Origin: an uncultured Pseudohongiella sp. | GTDB taxonomy: Bacteria; Pseudomonadota; Gammaproteobacteria; Pseudomonadales; Pseudohongiellaceae | Direction of reading: 5' to 3' | Length of the DNA stretch: 64,000 nt | Assembly (NCBI GenBank): GCA_951812965.1 | Contig: OX638341.1 | Location: 1,098,438 to 1,162,437 of the forward strand | Shown: one piece after another, positions 57,615 to 61,220 of the stretch | How the letters are laid out: every line of letters begins with the position of its first letter | Numbering within the stretch: position 1 is the first letter of the stretch | Program-made: the position numbers and the translations under genes | The notes under the pieces: generated by a model | What the model was told of the DNA's origin: nothing | Database searches by the model: none | Seen by the model: only the letters and a program-made list of their open reading frames with translations

Positions 57615-58307
57615 ATGAACGAACCGGCGCCTGTTGCCAGCTTTTCCGAACGTGTTTCCGGTTGGCTGGGCAATGTGTGGAGAGACAACCGCAACTTTCT
57701 GTTGCTGCTTTGCGCGATTGTGTTTTTCAAGAGCGCGATTGCCGATCTCAGCTCCATTTCCGGCGCTTCCATGTTGCCGACCCTCGTGGACGGCGACAAG
57801 GTCTGGGTCAACAAGCTCGCCTATGACGTGAAAGTTCCTTTCACCGATGTCACCCTGGCCAGATTGTCCGATCCAACCCGCGGCGATATCGTCATCATCG
57901 ACAGCGTTCAGGCGCGCAAGCGGCTTGTAAAGCGCATCGTAGGCGTACCCGGAGACCAGGTCGAGATTCAGAACAACGCGCTAATCATCAATGGCACACC
58001 GGTCGACTACGAGGTGCTGTCGCGGGAAAGCGGCGAGATGATCATCGAAGAGGCTTTGCCCGGACGCAATCATCAGGTCCGACTGACGCAATTTCGGAGT
58101 TCGAACCGCAGCTATGGGCCTGTGATAGTTCCCGAGGATCGCTATTTCGTGCTCGGCGACAATCGCAACAGCAGCGCCGACAGCAGGGTTTACAGTTTCA
58201 TACCCCGCGAGGAGCTCATGGGCCGCTCGCGCTCGGTCATTTTTTCGCTCGATAGCGACAACTATTTTCTGCCCCGCGGTAGCCGGTTCATGGCCGGGCT
58301 GGAGTAA
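57615..58307 (+). CDS. lepB: Signal peptidase I
   Basis: Inner-membrane serine protease that removes Sec and Tat signal peptides; 230 residues. A TM segment lies at about 28-45, then catalytic Ser52 (SISGASMLPTL) and general-base Lys106 (RLVKRIVGVPGD); box E (VLGDNRNSSADSR) is intact. ATG 57615 follows GGAAGTGG. It is shorter than E. coli LepB (324) but of the size usual for other gammaproteobacteria. A single TM is expected. Confidence 0.93.
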   Translation: MNEPAPVASFSERVSGWLGNVWRDNRNFLLLLCAIVFFKSAIADLSSISGASMLPTLVDGDKVWVNKLAYDVKVPFTDVTLARLSDPTRGDIVIIDSVQARKRLVKRIVGVPGDQVEIQNNALIINGTPVDYEVLSRESGEMIIEEALPGRNHQVRLTQFRSSNRSYGPVIVPEDRYFVLGDNRNSSADSRVYSFIPREELMGRSRSVIFSLDSDNYFLPRGSRFMAGLE

Positions 58308-58350
58308 CAGGACGGGAGTCTTTTCCTGGTGTAAGATTCGTGCAGTAATG

Positions 58351-58375
58351 CGGGCGACGCATGCGTCGCCCCTAC
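58351..58375 (+). repeat. Right-half palindrome between lepB and the redoxin gene
   Basis: cgggcgacgcatgcgtcg then cccctac, a perfect R half without a left partner; it lies 59 bp upstream of the redoxin ATG. Confidence 0.85.
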
Positions 58376-58433
58376 AGTGTGGCGGGCATTGTCCAAACGA
58401 AGCTTGTCTCACCTGAAACAATGGGGATCGGAT

Positions 58434-59003
58434 ATGCATTCGCGATTTCGAATATCACTGGCCGCAACGATGTTGGCCCTGTTCCTTTCCGGAAGCGCTT
58501 TCGCCCAGGACTTTGTCTGGGCGCCGGACCTTCCGACAGGCGCGGCGCTACCGCCGATTTCGGCCGAAGACCAGAACGGCGAAGTTCGCACGTTCGATGA
58601 TCTCGTGGGTGGCAACGGCATGCTTTTCATGCTCAGCCGCTCCTTCGACTGGTGACCCTACTGTAAATCTCAGCTCGTGCAGCTGACAGAGATTGCGGAA
58701 CAGTTCGAGGAAATGGGTTTGTCGGTGGTAGCGATGACCTACGATTCGGTGGAAATGCTGAAGATCGTCGAGGAAGATCAGGGAATAAATTTCGCGTTGC
58801 TGCATGACGAGGACGTTACCCACGTCAACGCCCTGGGCATCAGGAACATGGATTATGAGCCTGGCCATCGCGCCTACGGGATCCCGTATCCGGGCATATT
58901 CCTGGTCGATCCGGATGGCGTGATCCGGGCGAAGTTCGCCGAAGAAGATTATCGCGACCGCCCGGATTTTGAATTTGTCCTGGAAGCCGCGGCCAGCCTC
59001 TAA
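58434..59003 (+). CDS. Candidate selenoprotein: exported redoxin with UxxC motif
   Basis: An AhpC/TSA-redoxin-like thioredoxin-fold protein of 189 residues if the TGA at 58653-58655 (codon 74) is read as selenocysteine. A signal peptide ends at about Ala24 (FLSGSAFAQ). The motif reads FDW-TGA-PYCKSQLVQLTE, so UGA occupies the first Cys of a W-C-x-x-C motif; the second Cys is Cys77. Downstream, the frame continues with typical features: LSVVAMTYDS, FALLHDED, YGIPYPGIFLVDPDGVI (cis-Pro) and a normal end. The frame is the same on both sides and both halves belong to one fold, so a frameshift is excluded. A hairpin follows the UGA. Alternatively it is a nonsense mutation or a sequencing error. 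SelA/B/C/D were not seen in the window. Confidence 0.75.
58653..58689 (+). promoter_or_regulatory. Candidate bacterial SECIS hairpin after the in-frame UGA
   Basis: CAGCT (58671-58675) pairs with AGCTG (58681-58685) around the loop CGTGC, and CTGT (58661-58664) can pair with ACAG (58686-58689) across a bulge. The loop starts 21 nt after the UGA and has G as its second base; the family rule is a G in the first two loop positions, 16-37 nt downstream. The fit is by eye and no energy was computed. Confidence 0.6.
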
Positions 59004-59012
59004 AGGCAACGC

Positions 59013-61220
59013 ATGCGGGCGGCATTGCTATTCGCCGTTGCGACTGCGACCGGCGCGGATGCGGCTGCTCAAGGCCCGTCCACGATTGAAATTCCGCGAA
59101 CCCCCGCGGCGCCCGTAATCGACGGGCGCGTCGATCCGGCTGAATGGGCCGGGGCCGCTCGCGTCGAGGTCGATATCGAGTACCAGCCCGCGGACAATCG
59201 GCCGGCGGACGTACGCGCGGAAGCGCTGATCATGGAAGACGGCGAAACGCTGTTTGTCGCTTTTCTTGCCGAAGACCCCGACACCAGCAGCATCCGCGCC
59301 TATTTCAAGGACCGCGACGCCATTGTCGTGGACGATTGGATGTCGGTGGTGCTCGATACCTTCAACGACGAGCGCCGCGCCTACGCCTTTACTGTCAATC
59401 CTCTCGGCGTACAGGCAGATGCCATTTTCGACGACGTAAACGGGCGGCTGGACGATTCCTGGAACGGGATCTGGGACAGCGCAGGCCGAATCATCGAAAG
59501 CGGCTACAGCGTGGAACTGGCGATCCCGTTCAAGCAATTGCGCTTCAGCGACACCGAATCCGTGCAGACCTGGGGCGTGGATTTTGTCCGTCAGTATCCA
59601 CGGGACCAGGTGACCCTGATCTCCAGCAATCCGCGGAACCGCGATATCTCCTGTTATTTGTGCCAGATAGCCAAAGCTGACGGTTTTCACAATCTCGAAC
59701 GCGGCCGTAACCTGGAAATCATCCCGACGGTCACGGCAAGCGCGAGCAAAGACCGTCCTTCAGGCCAGGGCGATTGGCTGGGCGCGGACGAATCGGAAGG
59801 CGGTCTCGACGTGCGTTGGGGCATTACCCCGGACATGTATCTGAATGCGACGCTGAACCCGGATTTTTCCCAGGTCGAGGCAGACAGTCCGCAACTGGAC
59901 GTCAACAATACTTTCGCGCTGTTCTTTCCCGAGCGCCGGACGTTTTTCCTCGACGGTTCCGATTACTTCGAGACCCGGCAGAATCTGGTGCATACCCGCA
60001 CCATCGCCGAACCTGAATATGGCGCCAAGCTGACGGGTAAAAGCGGTGCGCATACCTTCGGTCTGCTGGCGGCAAACGATCGCAGCACAAGTTTCGTCAT
60101 TCCCGGCAGCCTGCGTTCGAGCACCGCCTCGCTGGGCGATTCTCCCAGCGATGTCGCCATCGGCCGCTACCGCGCGGACATCCTTGGCAATTCCACCGTC
60201 GGAGCGCTCGTTACCGACCGGCAAGGGAGTGGATATCGGAATACCGTCATGAGTCTGGACACCATGTTGCGTCCGACGGATCAGGACACGATCGCCATTC
60301 AGGCCATGCGCTCCCGTTCAAGCTATCCCGGGCAGATTCAGCGCGACTTCGGTCAGCAGGCGGACATTGCCGGCGATAATCTGTTTGTGGAGTACAGTCA
60401 CGCCGACCGCCGCTGGGACTGGCGCGTGGGATATTTTGATGTGGGGGAGGATTTCCGCGCTGACCTCGGCTTCATCAATCGGGTCGATTACAAGCATGTC
60501 GTCACTACCGTCGGACATACCTGGCGCTGGGACGGCGAAGGCTTCTTCAGCCGTATCCGCTTCGCCGCCGACTGGGACCGCACCGAAGATCAGTCCGGAC
60601 TCAAACTGGAAGAGGAAACGGAATTCTTCCTCAACATGAACGGGCCGATGCAGTCCTTTCTCAATGGACTGTTCGGTGGCAGCAAGTCCTGGTGGAACGG
60701 CCAGTACTTCGACGAACAGTTCAATCAGGTTCAGGTCGGTTTCAGTCCGTCGATGGACCTTACCCTGGGCATGCGTATCCGGATCGAAGACGTGGTGGAT
60801 TTCGCGAATACGCGTCTGGGCAGATCAAATCGGTTCGGACCGCAAATGCGCTATCAATGGGGACGACACCTGCAACTCGACCTGGAACACACGATCCAGC
60901 AATTCGACGTCGATGGTGGACGCCTGTTCACAGCTCGGCTCACCGACTTGCGCAGCATCTGGCAGTTCGACGCCCGCAGCGCTCTGCGTTTCACCTTGCA
61001 GCACTCGGATACCGAACGCGATCGATCGCTGTACACGTTCCCGGTGCAGCATCTCCACCGCGAGTTGACCACGCAATTGCTTTACAGCTTCAAACTGAAC
61101 GCCGCGACGCGTTTTTTCATCGGCTATTCCGACGCGGGCTTCCGCGACGACCGCTACCAATCCCTTGTTGAAACCAACCGCACCTGGTTCGCCAAGTTCA
61201 GCTACGCCTGGCTGCCCTGA
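59013..61220 (+). CDS. DUF5916 protein with N-terminal CBM9-like domain
   Basis: A 735-residue exported protein: signal at residues 1-19 (AALLFAVATATGADAAAQ), a carbohydrate-binding module 9-like domain (about 25-225; PVIDGRVDPAEWAGA, FKDRDAIVVDDWMSVVLDTFND), then the DUF5916 domain, likely an outer-membrane barrel (repeated aromatic strands, ending in FAKFSYAWLP with the terminal aromatic typical of barrels). Found in xanthomonads and marine gammaproteobacteria, function unknown. It begins 9 bases after the redoxin stop and may be cotranscribed. Confidence 0.85.
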   Translation: MRAALLFAVATATGADAAAQGPSTIEIPRTPAAPVIDGRVDPAEWAGAARVEVDIEYQPADNRPADVRAEALIMEDGETLFVAFLAEDPDTSSIRAYFKDRDAIVVDDWMSVVLDTFNDERRAYAFTVNPLGVQADAIFDDVNGRLDDSWNGIWDSAGRIIESGYSVELAIPFKQLRFSDTESVQTWGVDFVRQYPRDQVTLISSNPRNRDISCYLCQIAKADGFHNLERGRNLEIIPTVTASASKDRPSGQGDWLGADESEGGLDVRWGITPDMYLNATLNPDFSQVEADSPQLDVNNTFALFFPERRTFFLDGSDYFETRQNLVHTRTIAEPEYGAKLTGKSGAHTFGLLAANDRSTSFVIPGSLRSSTASLGDSPSDVAIGRYRADILGNSTVGALVTDRQGSGYRNTVMSLDTMLRPTDQDTIAIQAMRSRSSYPGQIQRDFGQQADIAGDNLFVEYSHADRRWDWRVGYFDVGEDFRADLGFINRVDYKHVVTTVGHTWRWDGEGFFSRIRFAADWDRTEDQSGLKLEEETEFFLNMNGPMQSFLNGLFGGSKSWWNGQYFDEQFNQVQVGFSPSMDLTLGMRIRIEDVVDFANTRLGRSNRFGPQMRYQWGRHLQLDLEHTIQQFDVDGGRLFTARLTDLRSIWQFDARSALRFTLQHSDTERDRSLYTFPVQHLHRELTTQLLYSFKLNAATRFFIGYSDAGFRDDRYQSLVETNRTWFAKFSYAWLP

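Follow-up and report, generated by a model that had tools for sequence, protein, structure and literature searches.

Prx-like (peroxiredoxin-like) UxxC selenoproteins of pfam00578 or pfam08534 became known from sea water through a Sargasso Sea study in 2005 (PMC1088965), followed by Prx-like 1 and Prx-like 3 in the Global Ocean Sampling study in 2008 (PMC2398784), and the entry "Redoxin family protein PF08534 UxxC" appears in a 2026 review (PMC13188914). The locus considered here is a redoxin gene interrupted by an in-frame UGA, at positions 58434-59003 of a 64,000-nucleotide (nt) stretch of contig OX638341.1 (assembly GCA_951812965.1) from an uncultured Pseudohongiella sp., the whole of this stretch being designated as the window. 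Its product is regarded, with a probability of roughly 0.88, as a redoxin of predicted peroxiredoxin fold in which UGA 74 very likely encodes selenocysteine (Sec, U), with insertion probably directed by a downstream hairpin, and which is predicted to operate as an exported U-P-Y-C disulfide reductase. Selenocysteine is preferred because the frame is intact, the UGA is conserved, Cys homologues exist, a frozen and covarying hairpin follows the codon and the complete selA, selB, selC and selD set is available. A sequence-only reading of this DNA had already proposed that the UGA is recoded as selenocysteine in a UxxC oxidoreductase, which is now supported by the machinery, the Cys homologues and the conserved hairpin. 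The features on which the argument relies are as follows, the hairpin being of the selenocysteine insertion sequence (SECIS) type.

58434-59003, forward strand: redoxin coding sequence, 189 codons plus TAA, with a single in-frame UGA read through.
58434-58505, forward strand: signal-peptide-like N-terminus M1-A24, read by eye, a predicted export signal.
58653-58655, forward strand: codon 74, a UGA predicted to encode selenocysteine as the first residue of UxxC; it is UGA in 45/45 distinct Sec-type regions and a Cys codon in 9/9 more distant loci, and aligns with the first Cys of ResA.
58662-58664, forward strand: Cys77, the other member of the redox pair, kept in 120/120 listed homologues (of 555).
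58670-58686, forward strand: SECIS-type hairpin, with a 6-bp stem pairing 58670-58675 with 58681-58686 and a 5-nt loop CGUGC at 58676-58680, 20 nt after the UGA.
58677-58679, forward strand: GTG within the hairpin loop, the start of a 108-residue fragment (58677-59003) in the mechanical list of open reading frames (ORFs).
58890-58892, forward strand: Pro153, taken as the cis-Pro of the thioredoxin family, kept in 120/120 listed homologues (of 555).

As had been noticed from the sequence alone, the frame on the forward strand is interrupted solely by the TGA at 58653-58655, in the context S-F-D-W-UGA-P-Y-C. Matches to the Pfam families AhpC-TSA (79.6 bits, cut-off 26) and Redoxin (51.2 bits, cut-off 26.6) both span the TGA, with a residue placed at it, and the remainder of the AhpC/TSA domain, IPYPGIF included, is encoded downstream, in keeping with the redoxin domain announced after this codon. 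The term thioredoxin-fold, as initially applied to the gene, can be refined, the predicted fold being peroxiredoxin-like, and not that of a plain thioredoxin, according to both Pfam and structural neighbours. The signal peptide said to precede the TGA is also found, in the form of a signal-peptide-like start judged by eye, with a basic beginning and a hydrophobic core ending in ALFLSGSAFA-QD; the predicted structure has a helix at residues 3-18, at modest confidence (block predicted local distance difference test score, pLDDT, of 68). Standard ORF calling reports the gene as two pieces, 58377-58655 and 58677-59003, of which the latter begins with the GTG of the hairpin loop.

Homologues were searched in 97 genomes, the source genome included, of which 87 gave some match. 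At E < 1e-60, a match is present in 46 genomes of the genus, again with the source genome; every match includes a single TGA, located at the same aligned codon in all 46 copies reaching this codon. Another two genus matches, both of them fragments at contig edges (G030 and G060), fall short of it and were left out. Since the codon is identical in 46 genomes, an error in a single assembly cannot explain the TGA. In a wider contig scan, 26 loci were distributed between TGA (16, some of them from the same genomes as the genus set), the Cys codons TGC or TGT in its place (nine) and one fragment, and the 120 proteins listed out of 555 have Cys (93), Trp (26) or Gly (one) at position 74. The alignment with homologues, which the sequence-only reading had put forward as a check, hence gives Cys or UGA at codon 74 rather than stops at random sites. 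Regarding the ratio of nonsynonymous to synonymous substitution rates (dN/dS), the six nearest of 12 relatives gave 0.09-0.18 before the UGA and 0.06-0.10 after it, a seventh gave 0.15 after it, and dS after the UGA was saturated in the other five; as estimated from these alignments, coding constraint in the form of purifying selection is exerted on both sides of the UGA and continues after it.

The nearest homologue records originate from metagenome assemblies labelled Pseudomonadales, Gammaproteobacteria or uncultured Pseudohongiella, and plasmid records contain distant relatives only (below 60% identity in 52/52 records). In a tree built by a quick method on 95 rows, after thinning near-copies at 88% identity and with a distant root, Cys rows are nested inside Sec rows, with at least six changes, two of them forced by starred branches; this pattern suggests that Sec and Cys were exchanged more than once. 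The Cys-type proteins P0010, P0011, P0017 and P0019 sit among Sec-type ones in this tree.

Immediately after the UGA, the sequence is constrained beyond its coding content. Over 45 distinct Sec-type regions, codons +6 to +10 read CAG (44/45), CTC (45/45), GTG (45/45), CAG (44/44) and CTG (43/45), and the synonymous entropy is 0 and 0.31 bits at the Leu codons of this block versus 2.1-2.5 bits at other Leu codons conserved in 45/45. The stem cells are paired at 99.1%, versus 9-49% with slid partners, and RNAalifold selects the same 6-bp helix. Two stem pairs exhibit changes on both sides, as equalled by 2/500 shuffles, while the observed fraction of paired cells was reached by 11/500 shuffles and the covariation score likewise by 11/500. 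The pattern DW-UGA-P[Y/F]C..QL was further collected in 116 copies from 73 of the 84 genus genomes (reversed-pattern control, 0), in which the redoxin and its paralogues are pooled and many copies are near relatives; there, stem pair 21/31 is G-C in 73, A-U in 39, G-U in 4 and broken in none. In the A-U form, CAA for Gln goes together with TT- for Leu, and in the G-C form CAG goes together with CT-, so the coupling lies between two synonymous choices. In another family, genome G063 (locus L070:1400-2100, reverse strand) harbours a distant homologue with S-V-D-W-U-P-F-C and the hairpin CAATTCGTGCAATTG, with two compensated pairs. The CGUG-loop block is found in 45/45 Sec-type regions versus 0/9 Cys-type ones. 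The rules for bacterial SECIS elements comprise a loop of 3-9 nt, a stem of 4-16 bp, a G at loop base 1 or 2, a spacing of 16-37 nt and a minimum free energy (MFE) of at most -7.5 (PMC13188914), and the predicted element lies within them, with a loop of 5 nt, an early G, a stem of 6 bp, a spacing of 20 nt and an MFE of -12.0 kcal/mol over 45 nt. On comparative evidence, then, the predicted hairpin after the UGA is both frozen and covarying.

The source genome, a single contig of 3,425,201 bases with 98.1% completeness, encodes the machinery required, the four genes whose search had been advised all being present: SelB (339 bits, cut-off 242), SelA (573 bits, cut-off 268), SelD (252 bits, cut-off 125) and, outside the window, a tRNA-Sec (65.8 bits, cut-off 47) with anticodon TCA according to ARAGORN. 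Within the 64-kb window itself, the Rfam scan and ARAGORN gave no match. Over the same cut-offs, 14 control genomes gave SelB in two, SelA in one, SelD in two and tRNA-Sec in five; counting any match, including weak ones, these figures become 14, 4, 14 and 14, respectively. Across the genus, SelB at E <= 1e-60 is present in 75 of 84 genomes (74 over cut-off) and in 67 of the 73 motif-bearing ones, and among the genomes carrying a Cys homologue, nine in all, SelB is found in three and not in the other six. As a side observation, SelD (L017, genome 1636572-1637468, reverse strand) is the C-terminal end of a 754-residue frame, the N-terminal part of which looks, by eye, like an NADH dehydrogenase. 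Such a layout resembles that of the Ndh-SelD fusions reported by the Global Ocean Sampling study (PMC2398784).

Several observations weigh against the proposed reading. The tRNA-Sec model exceeds its cut-off in 5/14 controls and so may not be fully specific; six motif-bearing genus genomes, drafts of 75-94% completeness, lack SelB at E <= 1e-60, and SelB occurs in 8/11 genus genomes without the motif, once below cut-off. One of the 120 listed proteins has the Gly at position 74 mentioned above, and the top-ranked structural neighbours are peroxiredoxins, nearer Bcp/AhpE than ResA. As for the hairpin, the 17 nt alone give -6.0 kcal/mol, the folding z-score for the window amounts to -1.37 over 45 nt and to -1.66 over 17 nt, and one stem pair is broken in each of 2/39 distinct rows. 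The MFE structure places a helix at the hairpin columns in 32/45 Sec-type regions and also in 4/9 Cys-type ones, and an MFE of at most -7.5 is reached in 42/45 and 8/9, respectively. Folding energy was rejected as a test of the hairpin, being useless for separating Sec-type from Cys-type regions; since folding fails to discriminate, the case for the hairpin is a comparative one, grounded in the frozen CGUG-loop block and the covariation.

Should the UGA be decoded as selenocysteine, SelB bound to the hairpin 20 nt downstream would deliver Sec-tRNA(Sec) while the ribosome pauses at the UGA, and the signal peptide would direct the product to export by the general secretion pathway. Once in the envelope, the Sec74 selenolate would attack a disulfide, or else some other oxidised thiol, and the intermediate would be resolved by Cys77, leaving a selenenylsulfide that could be re-reduced by a DsbD-type membrane carrier, one of which was found in the genome.

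With respect to the chemistry, the alignment with ResA places WcPyC over WCPHC, U74 falling opposite the leading Cys of WCxxC in ResA, in line with the earlier suggestion that the UGA replaces the first Cys of a redox motif. Cys77 aligns with the second Cys of ResA and with Cys in 2cx3, 5enu and 2ywn, the corresponding residue being Ser in 3hjp. In the profile alignment, Pro153 is opposite Arg in the BCP/Prx chains 2cx3, 3hjp and 2ywn, and in 5enu it faces a gap adjacent to an Arg; we take this Arg to be the catalytic one of peroxiredoxins and Pro153 to play the cis-Pro role. The strongest competitor to a disulfide reductase, albeit an improbable one, is a Sec-containing peroxidase, in which Sec74 or Cys77 would reduce hydroperoxides in the envelope as selenium peroxiredoxins do, and it is to this competitor that the structural neighbours point. 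Against it, the peroxiredoxin signature PxxxTxxC is absent, as S70-F-D-W-U74-P-Y-C77 has Ser70 for Pro and Sec74 for Thr, the conserved active-site Arg of peroxiredoxins is missing from the aligned position, where the listed homologues invariably keep Pro153 and three BCP/Prx chains carry Arg, and the selenium peroxiredoxin motif known so far is TxxU (PMC13188914), not UxxC. Because the PxxxTxxC signature is lacking and Pro stands in place of the peroxiredoxin Arg, disulfide-reductase chemistry is predicted to fit better than peroxidase chemistry.

It is highly improbable that the UGA is read as another amino acid, either as Trp under genetic code 4 or as Cys through an unusual tRNA. The 26 listed database entries with Trp at position 74 speak for such a decoding, the Trp fitting TGA translated under code 4, and there are bacteria with Cys-accepting tRNAs bearing a UCA anticodon. 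However, UGA terminates 19 of the 45 long ORFs of the window (in a mechanical list including some shadow frames), which argues against a reassignment throughout and rules out a change of genetic code; besides, the tRNA with the UCA anticodon matches the tRNA-Sec model, SelA and SelB are present, and the CGUG-loop block accompanies the UGA forms and none of the Cys forms.

That the UGA is a true stop, leaving either a pseudogene or two proteins with the second initiated at the hairpin GTG, is the least credible of all, for although mechanical ORF calling yields precisely these two frames and matching fragments are recorded among the database relatives of one paralogue (see below), the UGA is kept in 46/46 genus copies with no second stop inside the match, dN/dS stays at 0.06-0.18 across both sides in the six nearest relatives, a split would divide the active-site motif, and the hairpin covaries between synonymous choices. 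The 46/46 UGA and the low dN/dS on both sides likewise rule out a pseudogene or a sequencing error. A scan of the window for other UGA-split genes, requiring at least 15 codons before and at least 50 after the TGA with little overlap with long ORFs, returned eight read-through candidates, none of which was retained as a further gene: two overlap the redoxin (a longer-start version and a shadow frame) and the other six look non-coding by eye.

Regarding the surroundings of the redoxin gene, two neighbours can be described.

57615-58307, forward strand: signal peptidase I gene (lepB type), Pfam Peptidase_S26, 138 bits.
59013-61220, forward strand: gene for a CBM9-like/DUF5916 protein, 9 nt downstream, Pfam DUF5916 and CBM9_1.

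The lepB-type gene lies upstream in 43 of the 46 genus loci, the remaining three being contig ends, and was not seen in the fetched flanks of the nine Cys loci (0/9); the DUF5916 gene is matched, in part at least, in the flanking sequence fetched (up to 1.5 kb) for 38/46 genus loci. Ahead of the redoxin gene, a GC-rich palindrome, GGGCGACGCATGCGTCGCCC, occupies the intergenic positions 58350-58371 of the window; lookalikes occur next to the paralogues and in the frames near 55.5 kb, and the palindrome may be a dispersed intergenic repeat.

The DW-UGA motif pattern occurs at four places in the source genome (reversed pattern, 0), three of them outside the gene described so far and corresponding to paralogues.

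Genome near 60335, forward strand (L051:1887-3116): paralogue of about 400 residues with one internal UGA, motif at 60455.
Genome near 945974, forward strand (L052:1839-3026): paralogue of about 400 residues with one internal UGA, motif at 946088.
Genome near 1313246, reverse strand (L053:1278-2450): paralogue of about 400 residues with one internal UGA, motif at 1313415.

All three possess an AhpC-TSA domain with R-S-A-D-W-U-P-Y-C, a hairpin of the type CAR-CTC-GTG-GAG-YT and, by eye, a signal-peptide-like start; they are likely to be further selenoproteins, as far as their sequences tell. At the C-terminus, DsbD_N matches with 29.2 bits in one (cut-off 25) and just below cut-off in the other two (21.8 and 22.6 bits). 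Among the relatives of the L053 paralogue, in a search admitting proteins of 0.55-1.75 times the query length only, 117 of the 120 listed (P0122-P0241, out of 3,924) begin after the UGA, 98 of the 120 starting at the Val encoded here by the hairpin-loop GTG; the other three consist of one with an unclear offset and two full-length proteins with W and L at the UGA position. The DsbD transmembrane domain is found at one place in the source genome. The DsbD-type transmembrane protein L109 (genome 2084870-2085502, forward strand) displays, by eye, two tandem DsbD_N-like regions before its membrane part. It is conceivable, as a tentative proposal, that this lineage of Pseudohongiella-related gammaproteobacteria relies on selenium for reducing disulfides in the envelope: it would own four Sec redoxins per genome, three of them fused to a DsbD_N-like domain as a possible built-in donor and all sharing one recoding hairpin, which together would make up a reductive relay based on selenium and located outside the cytoplasm, overlooked by databases in which such proteins are recorded as fragments starting within the hairpin. 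In the Global Ocean Sampling study, Prx-like 3 is reported as a fusion with a domain of unknown nature that has three conserved Cys (PMC2398784), and this domain, likened by description only, might be the DsbD_N-like fusion of the paralogues.

This work adds a firmly supported selenoprotein, shared by 46 genomes of one genus and of predicted envelope location, to an uncultured gammaproteobacterial lineage, and provides a clean comparative example of a SECIS in which synonymous codon choices covary. It also illustrates how standard gene calling loses the active site, as in the paralogue family whose listed proteins mostly start past the UGA. Should electrons be donated by the fused DsbD-like domain, the reductant of exported selenoproteins would become a directly testable question. 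Among open-licence papers, none was found on selenoproteins in Pseudohongiella, and no study of this redoxin emerged from those on sponge/gammaproteobacterial, DsbD-linked, redoxin or periplasmic selenoproteins, as judged by title and abstract start.

As to how the redoxin relates to families already defined, no NCBIfam model exceeds its cut-off for it or its three paralogues. With the ResA-type exported oxidoreductases, it shares the redoxin domain and the aligned WCPHC, the Sec here replacing the first Cys of ResA, in which a cis-Pro comes later in the chain; the NCBIfam ResA model (PRK03147) gives 28.7 bits for a cut-off of 170. The SelL-related profile (NCBIfam NF040769) matches partially, best over residues 40-136, at 40.1 bits for a cut-off of 120, SelL being a selenocysteine-containing redox family with UxxU, not UxxC. 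PrxU has the peroxiredoxin fold and Sec in common with the present protein, but here the Sec is at the Thr position of the peroxiredoxin motif and not at that of the peroxidatic Cys, and the PrxU model gives 24 bits for a cut-off of 270.

The closest likeness is with the Prx-like thiol:disulfide oxidoreductase selenoproteins (PF00578, UxxC/UxxU), which have, according to the papers cited above, the same Pfam domains, the UxxC motif, a bacterial SECIS after the UGA and Cys homologues; matches to AhpC-TSA and Redoxin over cut-off, together with U-P-Y-C, place the present protein in this Prx-like/redoxin UxxC class. The term "signal peptide" was searched for in the texts of PMC2398784, PMC1088965 and PMC13188914 and does not occur there. 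In comparison with these published selenoproteins, likened by description only, the redoxin of Pseudohongiella comes with a hairpin whose freezing and covariation are documented within one genus. While the UxxC Prx-like kind of selenoprotein has been known since 2005-2008, the predicted selenoprotein presented here is a well-supported, lineage-specific member of it.
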